Origin: Candidatus Hydrogenedentota bacterium
GTDB lineage: Bacteria > Hydrogenedentota > Hydrogenedentia > Hydrogenedentales > SLHB01
Length of the DNA stretch: 34,102 nt
Direction: 5' to 3'
NCBI GenBank assembly: GCA_016209895.1
Contig: JACQVH010000150.1
Span: 1 to 34,102, forward strand
Part shown: piece by piece, positions 1,090-33,609 of the stretch
How the letters are laid out: each line of letters opens with the position of its first letter
Position numbering within the stretch: the stretch's first letter is position 1
Made by a program: the position numbers and the translations under genes
The notes under the pieces: model-generated
The model's input: the letters and a program-made list of their open reading frames with translations, nothing else
Told to the model about the DNA's origin: nothing
The model's database searches: none

Positions 1090-1486
1090 AACGTACGTTG
1101 ATACGTCCGCGTTGATTGCGTTTGTAGACCGGTCGGACAGCTTCCATCAACTCTTCCGTAGACTATTTTCCGAAGCTCCGGAATTGGTGACGACCACTCT
1201 GGTCGTGGCAGAAGGCCACGGTTGGTTCCTCAAGCGGTATGATCGGACGCGCGCGCTGCAATTTGTCTCGCTGATCGAGGATTTGAAGCCGCTGCGTCTG
1301 GTTGCGGTTGGAACTGATGAATTTGCCGGCGGTGTGCGCATGTTACGCAAGTTCTCAGACCAGAACCTTACGCTGACCGACGCCGTCGGCCTGCACGTGA
1401 TGAAGACGCACGGCGTCCGGAAGTGCTGGTCCACAGACTTTCATCTGGGTCTGACGGGCGTTTCACTGGTAATTGATGAATATTGA
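1073..1486 (+). CDS. PIN-domain ribonuclease toxin (VapC-like)
   Basis: VDTSALIAFVD, AEGH, TLTDAVGL and STDF motifs carry the spaced acidic residues of PIN domains; the ATG at 1073 overlaps the antitoxin end by 17 nt. Confidence 0.85.
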   Translation: MARRVETYVDTSALIAFVDRSDSFHQLFRRLFSEAPELVTTTLVVAEGHGWFLKRYDRTRALQFVSLIEDLKPLRLVAVGTDEFAGGVRMLRKFSDQNLTLTDAVGLHVMKTHGVRKCWSTDFHLGLTGVSLVIDEY

Positions 1487-1544: not shown

Positions 1545-1614
1545 ATCCCTCATCTTTCACCGTTCATCATTCAGCCTTCGTCGTTCATCGTTCACGCTTC
1601 AAACTTACGGTTTC
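1545..1614. repeat. Degenerate 7-bp-period tandem tract (10 units, ATCGTTC-like)
   Basis: ATCCCTC ATCTTTC ACCGTTC ATCATTC AGCCTTC GTCGTTC ATCGTTC ACGCTTC AAACTTA CGGTTTC; T at position 6 in 10/10 units, C at position 7 in 9/10. Confidence 0.88.
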
Positions 1615-1654
1615 AACAGCATTCTTCGTCCGCTTTGTGGTAGACTCGTTCCGT

Positions 1655-3334
1655 ATGTCGAGCGCGCCTGATCGCCCCATTATTGTGCAGTCTGACCGGT
1701 CCGTCCTGTTGGAGACGGATAGCCCGGTCTTTGAGGATGCGCGGGACAGCCTGGCCGCGTTTGCGGAACTGGTGAAGTCGCCGGAGCACATCCATACCTA
1801 CCGGATCACGCCGCTTTCGCTTTGGAACGCGGCCGCAGCGGGGATGAAGGCCGAGGAGATTGTCGAGAGCCTGTTTCGGTTCAGCAAATATGAGGTACCG
1901 CAGAACGTTATCGTGGATATCCGGGATACCGTGGCACGCTATGGCCGGCTCAAACTCTTCAAGCGCGAAGACGGCCAGTTGGTCTTGCAGTCCGACGATG
2001 CCAAGCTGATCATCGAGCTTTTGAACCAGAAGGCCATCCAGCCCTTCATTACCGGCTCTCCGGATGGGAAACAGATTTTCGTCAAGCCCATTGACCGAGG
2101 GAACGTCAAGAGCGCGCTGATCAAACTCGGGTTTCCGGTCGAGGACTTGGCAGGTTACATTGACGGGGCGCCGCTGACGTTGCAATTGCGCGACATGGCG
2201 CTTTCCGGAAAACCGTTTCAAATGCGGAAGTATCAGCGGGAGTCGGTGGATGCGTTCTACATGCGCGGGTCCAATCATGGCGGAAGCGGGGTTGTAGTGC
2301 TGCCGTGCGGGGCGGGCAAGACGATGGTGGGCATGGGCGTGATGAATTGCCTCCAGACGCAGACATTGGTCTTGACGACCAATACCGTCGCGCTGCGGCA
2401 ATGGAAGAACGAATTGAAGGACAAGACCACCTTAACCGAGGACGCGATAGGCGAGTATAGCGGTGATTCGAAAGAAATCCGACCGGTCACGATTGCGACG
2501 TACCAAGTTCTGACCTATCGTAAAGTGAAGGACGGTCCCTTTCTGCATTTCAGCCTGTTTGACGAAGGCAATTGGGGATTGATTATTTATGACGAGGTCC
2601 ATCTCTTGCCGGCCCCGGTGTTTCGCGCCACCGCCGATTTGCAGGCGCGGCGGCGTCTCGGCCTTACGGCGACGCTGGTGCGTGAGGATGCGCGCGAAGA
2701 CGAGGTATTCAGTCTAATCGGTCCCAAGAAGTACGACGTACCGTGGAAAGTCCTTGAGAAGCAGGGTTGGATTGCGCAGGCCGTCTGCACCGAAGTCCGG
2801 GTGCCGTTGCCGGAGGAGGAACGGTACCGCTACGCCATCTCGGACAAGCGCGGGAAGTTTCGGATCGCGTCCACGAATCCGGTCAAGGATCGAATCTGTG
2901 AATCGCTGATCGCGCGCCATCGGGAGGATAACGTGTTGGTCATCGGGCAGTACTTGGACCAACTCAAGCTCCTCGCCAAACGCTTCAAGGCCCCGCTCAT
3001 TACCGGCCAAGCGGCGAACCGGGAACGCGAACGTCTCTACAACGCGTTCCGCGTGGGGGAGATCAAATTGCTCATCGTTTCAAAGGTGGCAAATTTCGCG
3101 ATTGACCTGCCCGACGCCAACGTGGCCATCCAGGTCTCGGGCACGTTCGGTTCGCGCCAGGAAGAGGCGCAGCGGCTGGGCCGGATTCTGAGACCGAAAA
3201 CCGACAATGCACTGGCGCGCTTTTACTCGCTGGTCTCGCGCGATACCTGTGACCAGGATTACAGCGTGAAGCGCCAGCTCTTCCTAACGGAACAAGGATA
3301 CCGGTACGAAATCCGTAACGCCGAGGAAGTCTAA
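1655..3334 (+). CDS. XPB/Rad25-type SF2 DNA helicase
   Basis: Walker A LPCGAGKT, DEVH box, RRLGLTATLVREDAREDEVFSLIGPKKYD (RED motif), motif VI EAQRLGRILRPK; upstream GTG (1637) also possible. Confidence 0.92.
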   Translation: MSSAPDRPIIVQSDRSVLLETDSPVFEDARDSLAAFAELVKSPEHIHTYRITPLSLWNAAAAGMKAEEIVESLFRFSKYEVPQNVIVDIRDTVARYGRLKLFKREDGQLVLQSDDAKLIIELLNQKAIQPFITGSPDGKQIFVKPIDRGNVKSALIKLGFPVEDLAGYIDGAPLTLQLRDMALSGKPFQMRKYQRESVDAFYMRGSNHGGSGVVVLPCGAGKTMVGMGVMNCLQTQTLVLTTNTVALRQWKNELKDKTTLTEDAIGEYSGDSKEIRPVTIATYQVLTYRKVKDGPFLHFSLFDEGNWGLIIYDEVHLLPAPVFRATADLQARRRLGLTATLVREDAREDEVFSLIGPKKYDVPWKVLEKQGWIAQAVCTEVRVPLPEEERYRYAISDKRGKFRIASTNPVKDRICESLIARHREDNVLVIGQYLDQLKLLAKRFKAPLITGQAANRERERLYNAFRVGEIKLLIVSKVANFAIDLPDANVAIQVSGTFGSRQEEAQRLGRILRPKTDNALARFYSLVSRDTCDQDYSVKRQLFLTEQGYRYEIRNAEEV

Positions 3335-9865: not shown

Positions 9866-10847
9866 TGGTGCATTTAGGAGGATTTGCGCCGCCATTTTTC
9901 TTGTATTCAGCTTGGTGTTGCCGATATTTCCCCTCCGCACGACGGCTTCGGGTGCCGTCCTGAATGAGGGTGTAATCGAGATCGAATACGACCCCGCGGA
10001 CGAAGCCATGGCCCGCGAAAGTATGAAGACGCTTCAGTCTGCGCTTCGGGAATTTTCGCAACGACTTCCGGCCGGCGAGCAGGCGATTCACGTAGTGATC
10101 TGCAATACCAGACCCGAATTCGCGCACATGGCCGGACCTTATGCGGTGCCGAACGTTACCGGCATCGCTCGACCGGACCTGGGTCTGATTGCCGTGAAGA
10201 GTCCGAATCTGCTCCCGCAGGGTGGCGACTATGAAGGCACGTTGCGTCACGAGTTGGTGCACGTGCTGCTGGTGCGGAACGTGAACGAAAAGAACCTCCC
10301 ACATTGGCTCAATGAAGGCATTACGATGGTGCTTTCGCGGGAACACCGCTGGTCGTCCAGCCTACGTGTGGCGCAAATGTATATGTACGGGAGCGTCATC
10401 GAGTATCGCGAACTCGAGTTCGTGTTTAACGAACCCGGAAACGAGATGGAGTTCGGCGATGCGTATGCTCAAAGCCTGTCCATGACGCGATACCTCCTTG
10501 ATCGTCTGGGCGAGAACCGGTTCTGGAGCATGCTCCGTACTCTCGAACACCAAAGCTTCGGGCAAGCGCTCGAACAGTTCACGGAGCTGACGCCGTACAA
10601 GTTCTGGGAGGCGTGGAAGAATTCGCTGTGGAAGGTTGCTCTTGTTTCGTCGCTTGTGTCAGGATTCTCTCTCTTCCAACTCATGGCGATACTGACGCTG
10701 ATGGCGTATCTTCGGAAGCGACGAAAAGGGAAAGAGATTCTGCAGGCATGGGAGGAGGAGCGCGGCACGGGCAGTACGTCGCCCGAGTCGTATGAGGAAC
10801 CGACCGAGTGGGAAGACTGGTATGACGACGATGAGGAACGGTGGTAG
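9813..10847 (+). CDS. Membrane-associated gluzincin-type metallopeptidase (peptidase MA-like)
   Basis: Signal/TM segment AAIFLVFSLVLPIFPL, HELVH motif with downstream LNEGI, C-terminal TM segment; start codon uncertain (ATG 9813 or a later start). Confidence 0.8.
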   Translation: MPLPAGQVEGPTSLPHVDGAFRRICAAIFLVFSLVLPIFPLRTTASGAVLNEGVIEIEYDPADEAMARESMKTLQSALREFSQRLPAGEQAIHVVICNTRPEFAHMAGPYAVPNVTGIARPDLGLIAVKSPNLLPQGGDYEGTLRHELVHVLLVRNVNEKNLPHWLNEGITMVLSREHRWSSSLRVAQMYMYGSVIEYRELEFVFNEPGNEMEFGDAYAQSLSMTRYLLDRLGENRFWSMLRTLEHQSFGQALEQFTELTPYKFWEAWKNSLWKVALVSSLVSGFSLFQLMAILTLMAYLRKRRKGKEILQAWEEERGTGSTSPESYEEPTEWEDWYDDDEERW

Positions 10848-10889
10848 TTTTCGATTTCGGATCGTGGATTGCGGATTTCGGATTGCGGA
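10848..10889. repeat. Degenerate 7-bp-period tandem tract (6 units, GATTNNN family)
   Basis: TTTTCGA TTTCGGA TCGTGGA TTGCGGA TTTCGGA TTGCGGA; G and A invariant at positions 6-7; begins directly after the stop codon. Confidence 0.85.
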
Positions 10890-10964
10890 ATGTGCCTGAG
10901 GTGGACACGTGCGGAATGGATTTCCGGCGGATCGGGAAACAATGAAGGGGATGAACAGTAGGGA

Positions 10965-32463: not shown

Positions 32464-32505
32464 AACGTCAAATCGAGAATCGGCAATCGAAAATCGAAAA
32501 TCGAG
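32464..32505. repeat. Degenerate 7-bp-period tandem tract (6 units, AATCGAA; GATTNNN family on the minus strand)
   Basis: AACGTCA AATCGAG AATCGGC AATCGAA AATCGAA AATCGAG. Confidence 0.85.
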
Positions 32506-32517
32506 TGGATGGCTTGT

Positions 32518-33609
32518 ATGAGAATCTTGCATGTCTACAAGGATTTTGATCCGCCCATCCACGGCGGCGTGGAACGCCACGTCGCCCTTATGTGTCGCTA
32601 TCAGCGCGAGTGGGCCGAGGTTGAGGCGTTGGTCTGCAGCCGCTCGTTTTGCACGCGTACTGTCGAGCGCGACGGCACGCGTGTGACCGAGGTCGGCGAA
32701 TGGGGCCGCTTCCAGAACGCGCCCGTTTCTCCGCTGTTTCCGTTCTACTTGCGCCGGATGGAAGCCGACGTGGTCGTCGTTCACGTCCCGAATCCGACCG
32801 CCGAACTGTCCTGGCTGATGGTGCGGCCGCGAGGCAAGCTCGTGGTGCGATATCACAGCGACGTGGTGCGCCAGGCGTCAGCGATGCGGTTCTATGGCCC
32901 ATTGCAGTTGAGATTCCTTCGGAACGCCGCGCTCATCTTGCCGACGTCGGAGCCTTACGTCGAGACCTCGCCCATGTTGCGCGCGGTCCGCGACCGTTGC
33001 CGCGTCGTACCGCTGGGCATCGTGCCCGAGACATTCCAGCGCGCCGATCCGCAACGTGTGCAGGCGCTGCGCGCCCGCTACGGCGGCAACTATGTTCTAT
33101 TTACGGGACGGCACCGTTACTACAAGGGACTCGGATACCTCGTGAAGGCCGCGCCTCATATTAAGGCGCGCGTCGTGATCGCGGGCGACGGCCCCGAACG
33201 TGCGCGTTGTGAAGCCTTGGCACAAGATCTTGGCGTGCACGTCGAGTTTCCCGGAAGCCTTACCAACGAAGAACTCGTCGAACACCTGCACGGCTGCGAA
33301 GTTTTCGTCTTCTCCTCAGTGGAACGCAGCGAAGCGTTTGGTATTTCGTTATTGGAGGCCCATGCTTGCGGCAAGCCCGCCGTTGCCACCCGACTCGGCA
33401 CAGGCGTCGAATTTGCCAACCTCCATAATCAAACGGGCCTGAACGTGCCCCCGCGCGATCCCAATGCCCTCGCCGAAGCCGTCAACACGTTGCTTGCCGA
33501 CCCCGCCCTCCGGGCTCGCATGGGCGACTTCGCCCGCCGTCGCGTCCTCACCGAATTCAACGCCACCAACGTCGCCCGCCGCGAATTCGACCTCTACCTC
33601 CACGCGTGA
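32518..33609 (+). CDS. GT4 family glycosyltransferase (3)
   Basis: MRILHVYKDFDPPIHGGVERHV; LFTGRHRYYKGLGYLVKA; FSSVERSEAFGISLLEAHACGKPAV; ATG at 32509 also possible. Confidence 0.9.
   Translation: MRILHVYKDFDPPIHGGVERHVALMCRYQREWAEVEALVCSRSFCTRTVERDGTRVTEVGEWGRFQNAPVSPLFPFYLRRMEADVVVVHVPNPTAELSWLMVRPRGKLVVRYHSDVVRQASAMRFYGPLQLRFLRNAALILPTSEPYVETSPMLRAVRDRCRVVPLGIVPETFQRADPQRVQALRARYGGNYVLFTGRHRYYKGLGYLVKAAPHIKARVVIAGDGPERARCEALAQDLGVHVEFPGSLTNEELVEHLHGCEVFVFSSVERSEAFGISLLEAHACGKPAVATRLGTGVEFANLHNQTGLNVPPRDPNALAEAVNTLLADPALRARMGDFARRRVLTEFNATNVARREFDLYLHA

Follow-up and report, generated by a model that had tools for sequence, protein, structure and literature searches.

The heptamer tract at positions 1545 to 1614 of the window (the whole 34,102-bp stretch of DNA analysed) was confirmed as a real, phase-true array that exceeds chance expectation, and it belongs to a genome-wide class of heptamer arrays. 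As the sequence-only reading had described, the tract consists of ten 7-bp units (from 1545: ATCCCTC ATCTTTC ACCGTTC ATCATTC AGCCTTC GTCGTTC ATCGTTC ACGCTTC AAACTTA CGGTTTC), with T at position 6 in all ten and C at position 7 in nine. Two further positions are nearly fixed, T5 (9/10) and A1 (8/10); the fixed core is therefore TTC plus A (A....TTC) rather than one base. The G- and purine-rich strand is the minus strand, on which the words read GAANNNT, the dialect of the tract; the plus strand reads TTCANNN.

Self-identity of the tract was 40/63 at lag 7, 35/56 at lag 14, and 31/49 at lag 21, against 6 to 21 matches per approximately 60 to 68 positions at the remaining short lags. Its top 49-base stretch had 34 matches at lag 7; the maxima among 300 second-order shuffles of the window were 31 over lags 2 to 24 and 29 at lag 7, below the tract in every shuffle. 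Tandem Repeats Finder (TRF) called period 7 at 1550 to 1594 and, with a higher score (59; 84% matches), period 21 at 1561 to 1600, a three-unit higher-order duplication of 21 bp within the tract. The final two units (AAACTTA and CGGTTTC) are marginal, and to that extent they favor an artefact of chance or composition; however, the tract beats all 300 shuffles over the full set of lags, and the lag-7 excess is genome-wide, so such an artefact has almost no probability of being the correct reading.

Neither strand of the tract carries four G3 runs. The plus-strand RNA has a minimum free energy of -6.9 kcal/mol over 74 nt, and the sense RNA (approximately 70 nt) is pyrimidine-rich, with C exceeding G, and weakly structured. 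There were no Rfam RNA matches in the window, neither an intrinsic terminator nor a consensus sigma-70 promoter was found at the tract, and no inverted partner of the tract exceeded background (score 9). A similarity search of the tract against its own genome returned only the self-match; TTCACCGTTC-type words of the tract recur elsewhere in the genome.

The host is a "Ca. Hydrogenedentota" metagenome-assembled genome (MAG) of 5.34 Mb in 312 contigs (93.8% complete), in agreement with the earlier impression that the gene content is not cyanobacterial. About one-fifth of the genome (approximately 1.1 Mb) was analysed, with genes called by a hexamer-score caller made for this analysis. Because part of this larger set had been chosen for its TTC-type words (gene orientation played no part in the choice), the unselected contigs were given separate statistics; this sample comprised contigs C1 to C39, every third contig of C160 to C217, and the window (0.78 Mb). 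The refuting outcome named in the sequence-only reading, no genome-wide lag-7 excess between genes, did not occur: in the unselected sample, the intergenic autocorrelation excess was z = 13.7 at lag 7, 10.5 at lag 14, and 9.6 at lag 21, and coding DNA had no lag-7 excess. With three all-N contigs subtracted, the same 0.78 Mb contained 58 lag-7 arrays, 47 of them mostly intergenic, versus mostly 0 to 3 at other lags, with the exceptions of lag 9 (20 arrays, 11 intergenic) and lag 14 (28 arrays); first-order simulated sequence gave none. An N-free rescan of the 0.78 Mb at a slightly laxer threshold gave 69 lag-7 arrays versus 0 to 8 at other lags, save lags 9 (27) and 14 (40). The 9-bp periodicity is a weaker excess that is partly intergenic, and coding periodicity may contribute to it. 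By extrapolation, the genome would hold some 300 intergenic heptamer tracts, and similar tracts adjoin unrelated genes across the genome. Arrays were found at 7 of 93 contig ends, versus 1.9 expected, so assemblies may break there and arrays may be under-counted; examples are L051:16376-16436, L141:10637-10775, and L143:70-140.

The window itself has three further tracts, all listed on the plus strand. The tract at 3 to 76 is a composite (CGAGTNN -> AAACYGG -> ACTAGCA/ACTAACA) that abuts an ATG at 79 and matches the composite profile described below with an E value of 1e-15, this locus being one of the profile seeds. A GGATTTC/GGATTGC tract at 10848 to 10894 begins at the stop codon of the gene at 9912 to 10847, and an AAATCGA tract at 32469 to 32506 ends approximately 12 bp ahead of the gene at 32518.

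The target lies 58 bp past the stop codon of a PIN-domain gene (1112 to 1486, plus strand; PF01850, 1.3e-10) and 40 bp ahead of the ATG at 1655 of an XPB/ERCC3-type helicase gene (1655 to 3334, plus strand; PF16203, 1.4e-49; PF13625, 9.6e-39), whose product is up to 84% identical to proteins of "Ca. Hydrogenedentota" MAGs. The ATG at 1655 is probably the true start of the helicase gene: an extended -10 element (TTTGTGgTAGACT) and this ATG (1632 to 1657, plus strand) recur as a conserved TTTGTGNTACACT...ATG block at many XPB loci of Hydrogenedentota, and the TTTGTGNTANACT-to-ATG block is common to many relatives. With XPB as the query, plasmids gave distant matches only. The sequence-only reading had noted that the tract sits directly 5' of the repair cassette. 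A special tie between the two was not supported: the XPB promoter core lies 3' of the tract, no lag-7 tract was found upstream of XPB at the other Hydrogenedentota loci examined, and similar tracts sit beside unrelated genes; the cassette is therefore a neighbor and not an explanation. An XPB-specific cis element was rejected because the tract is absent from those loci, and the tract is probably dispensable for XPB, although a reduction of read-through from the PIN gene may be an incidental effect of it. Just 5' of the target, a small ORF followed by the PIN-domain gene (865 to 1486) has a layout like that of a type II toxin-antitoxin system. XPB genes of Chloroflexi, Latescibacterota, and Verrucomicrobia likewise have degenerate heptamer tracts next to them, in some cases inverted; degenerate and inverted tracts adjoin XPB genes at L105:1314-1609 (Anaerolineae), L107:1101-1201 (unclassified bacterium), and L089:3949-4013 (Latescibacterota).

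The orientation of the arrays follows the nearest gene edge. Where that edge is a stop, the G-rich strand is sense in a ratio of 42:8; where it is a start, the G-rich strand is antisense in a ratio of 29:9 (pooled, 71 versus 17, p = 5e-9; unselected contigs alone, 39 versus 11, p = 9e-5). Four relatives showed a trend only (14 versus 7, p = 0.19). Within gaps between co-directional genes, proximity to the stop goes with a G-rich sense strand and proximity to the start with a C-rich one (p = 3.6e-5). The target fits this rule, since it is C-rich in sense and its nearest edge is a start. A G-quadruplex (G4) motif (G3+ x4) is present in only 5 of 103 tracts; G-quadruplexes were accordingly rejected as an explanation, and the strand rule does not need them.

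The words themselves form a shared vocabulary. Of 99 tracts, 89 have consensus words that join into one network at one substitution, and there are 369 close word pairs, versus 126 +/- 9.5 for shuffled words. The main dialects are GAAGNNT, AAACYGG, GTNCCGA, GCAAYGA, AAAGGAY, and ACAGGAG. This vocabulary is lineage specific and is not conserved between genera: AGCAAYGAGCAAYGAG has 194 matches in the genome versus 1 in 59 relatives, AAACYGG triplets are absent from the relatives, and the GAAGNNT pattern is abundant in just a few relatives, with its own words in each.

The dialects follow one another in a fixed order on one strand, GCAAYGA -> GTNCCGA -> AAACYGG -> CACTGR -> GCAACTA (a->b, 67:2, and a->d, 47:0, in unit counts that are non-independent; by locus, a->b is 15:1). 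A second fixed order is AAAGGAY -> GAAGNNT -> AAACYGG (9:0, 10:0, and 7:0). A profile of the composite matched 34 distinct places in the approximately 1.1 Mb at E values of <1e-4, 12 of which are its seeds, and copies were also present on contigs outside those used to build the profile, with E values down to 4.5e-24. At L166:2410-2527, L166:3439-3585, L141:3906-4036, and L047:802-906, a composite of approximately 110 bp made of ordered, slowly changing heptamers fills the gap between co-directional genes; its orientation is a tendency, because two composites at extra loci between co-directional genes are antisense. Context also differs by dialect, as assessed by Fisher tests: GCAAYGA is sense in 15 of 18 cases, nearly all of those flush with a stop; GAAGNNT lies mostly after stops; and AAAGGAY is antisense before starts in 7 of 7. 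This dependence suggests that selection acts in favor of the arrays as well as against them, and to that extent it speaks against the joint reading given below.

Some arrays have an inverted counterpart. A word-matched inverted partner within 300 bp was present for 18 of 100 arrays, versus 2 of 100 for direct partners and approximately 2% at other loci (Fisher p = 2e-4); the 18 cases count both arms of a pair and so represent roughly half that number of independent events. The spacers between arms are 40 to 115 bp long and unrelated to one another, which rules out a miniature inverted-repeat transposable element (MITE) with a conserved interior, and the gene contexts are mixed, which rules out purely convergent terminators. 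Inverted arrays with matching words were found in several genera (L141:8436-8634, L148:7370-7549, L191:19431-19583, L235:10595-10733, L246:949-1101, and L270:90-246).

The degeneracy of the tracts is reproduced by a simple history. Mean lag-7 identity is about 0.69 to 0.75, and identity between units drops with distance along the tract: the observed values for lags 7 to 35 are.748/.684/.638/.578/.568, and a simulation of one-unit slippage with substitution gives.745/.651/.596/.558/.531. With 1.2 to 1.6 substitutions for each unit gained and few changes thereafter, this simulation also approximates the minority counts and the invariant columns of the tracts. A perfect array that only decays by point mutation is ruled out, since its simulated lag profile is flat, and simulated multi-unit slippage misses the observed statistics. 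Mismatches in the tracts are concentrated by phase (z = 7.5 and 15); however, because the slippage history reproduces the column statistics, we do not take this concentration as evidence of selection. The sequence-only reading had supposed from the degenerate word in strict period that the phase seems maintained or the tract is old. This supposition was not supported, because one-unit slippage with approximately 1.2 to 1.6 substitutions per unit gives the same statistics, and tandem duplication by seven keeps phase while letters drift, so that no phase-keeping function is required. In one pair of tandem gene copies with 78.8% identity, the arrays behind the stop codons begin with the same five units and then diverge in unit number and order; gene conversion may account for the common block.

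We favor, with somewhat better than even confidence, a joint reading in which 7-bp slippage and substitutions generate the arrays, copying between loci spreads them, and the tolerance of neighboring genes filters their placement. Arrays would lengthen by repeated one-unit replication slippage, with substitutions gathering between slips, so that phase would be kept while words drift along the array. Copying of array sequences between loci would give one lineage-specific vocabulary and the ordered composites. Arrays would persist between genes, often flush with stops and oriented so that the G-rich strand is sense past a stop codon but antisense ahead of a start codon, and we infer purifying selection on their orientation. 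It is plausible that G-rich sense words (e.g., AAGGATG) before genes would be mistaken for ribosome sites and starts and that C-rich sense runs after stops would act as Rho-loading sites, harming downstream operon genes. Rho is encoded in the genome; the Rho-polarity reason is nevertheless weakly supported, since the two orientations are not distinguished by gap length (gaps with C-rich-sense arrays are not clearly longer, p = 0.23). Slippage alone leaves the word network, the dialect order, the inverted pairs, and the strand rule unexplained, and locus-matched inverted pairs are predicted by neither slippage nor tolerance alone.

Two other explanations were considered. The arrays might be a dispersed family, like repetitive extragenic palindromic (REP) elements or MITEs (or foldback-like, for the inverted pairs), in which an ordered composite was spread by mobility or by gene conversion and the tracts, the target among them, are fragments of it. 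The constant dialect order, the profile matches at seed and independent loci, the common vocabulary, the inverted arms with their 40- to 115-bp spacers, and the array-rich contig ends would all follow, but the spacers share no common interior, no target-site duplication was noticed by casual inspection, the target and most other tracts are short and made of a single dialect, and the words change between genera; we consider this origin possible, although on balance unlikely. Alternatively, the arrays could be a posttranscriptional or transcription-boundary code in which heptamer RNA binds a protein or Rho, with the target a rut site that shields the XPB promoter from PIN read-through. The weak fold and C-over-G bias of the target RNA, the presence of Rho, the negative search for an intrinsic terminator, the dialect-specific contexts (such as the stop-flush GCAAYGA tracts), and the RNA-level role proposed for TAACTGA repeats (MacGregor 2015, PMC4679880) are consistent with such a code. 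Most stop-adjacent arrays, however, have a G-rich sense strand, contrary to what a rut site would show, no tract is present at the other XPB loci examined in Hydrogenedentota, and the vocabulary changes from genus to genus; we consider such a code rather unlikely. A broader idea, which we regard as doubtful, is that the arrays are lineage-specific gene-boundary punctuation, with dialects read by context (operon-gene stop, convergent 3' end, or pre-start) and inverted arms bracketing intergenic regions; period 7 and the strand rule would then persist from phylum to phylum, with each genus replacing the words. The ordered dialects and word-matched inverted arms are concrete, testable regularities.

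Cyanobacterial short tandemly repeated repetitive (STRR) sequences are heptanucleotide tandem repeats in noncoding DNA with a fixed consensus; by that general description, they share period 7 with the present arrays and are set apart by the fixed consensus and a different phylum. REP- and MITE-type elements have a conserved interior between inverted ends, whereas the spacers of the present inverted pairs are unrelated. Heptanucleotide long simple sequence repeats (Mrazek 2007, as summarized in PMC4679880) are likewise tandem, intergenic, and over-represented genome-wide, and the SPADE paper (PMC6344855) reports that, across a broad spectrum of prokaryotes, no intergenic tandem repeat is commoner than the heptamer, for which it sees no clear functional clue. 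In these surveys, slippage is proposed and the repeats mostly have near-identical units, whereas neighboring units in the Hydrogenedentota tracts are about 70 to 75% identical, and those of the target less (40/63). Such degenerate tracts are easily missed by repeat finders, and the class may therefore be under-counted.

The TAACTGA direct repeats at gene starts of marine Beggiatoaceae, for which an RNA-binding regulator has been suggested (MacGregor 2015, PMC4679880), are also numerous intergenic heptamer arrays at gene edges, with a patchy phylogeny and some units split by related words. They have a near-invariant word and lie mostly just 5' of starts, whereas the Hydrogenedentota arrays are degenerate, come in several dialects (GAAGNNT, AACYGGA, GCAAYGA, and others), lie in many cases at stops, and are in some cases inverted. 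Beggiatoaceae arrays end a few nucleotides before the start; the target, at 40 bp, does not, and in the window only the tract at 3 to 76 does.

The nearest parallel in placement is that of the GGGNATC and GGGGA(C/T)T heptamers of Xanthomonas and Nostoc (Rehm et al. 2015, PMC4692102), in which stops are accompanied by a G-rich sense strand and starts by a G-rich antisense strand and for which G4 structures were considered as the basis of placement. Both sets have period 7, dispersed noncoding locations, variable units, the strand rule, and inverted pairs (some in Xanthomonas). The repeats of Rehm et al. use a single G4-forming word, preferentially in arrays of four units, whereas the Hydrogenedentota tracts use many words and G4 motifs are rare among them; neither such a motif nor the GGGNATC word occurs in the target. 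The strand rule itself had already been reported; our data suggest that it extends to tracts almost all of which lack a G4 motif and, as far as one genome can suggest, that G-quadruplexes are not needed for it at gene edges.
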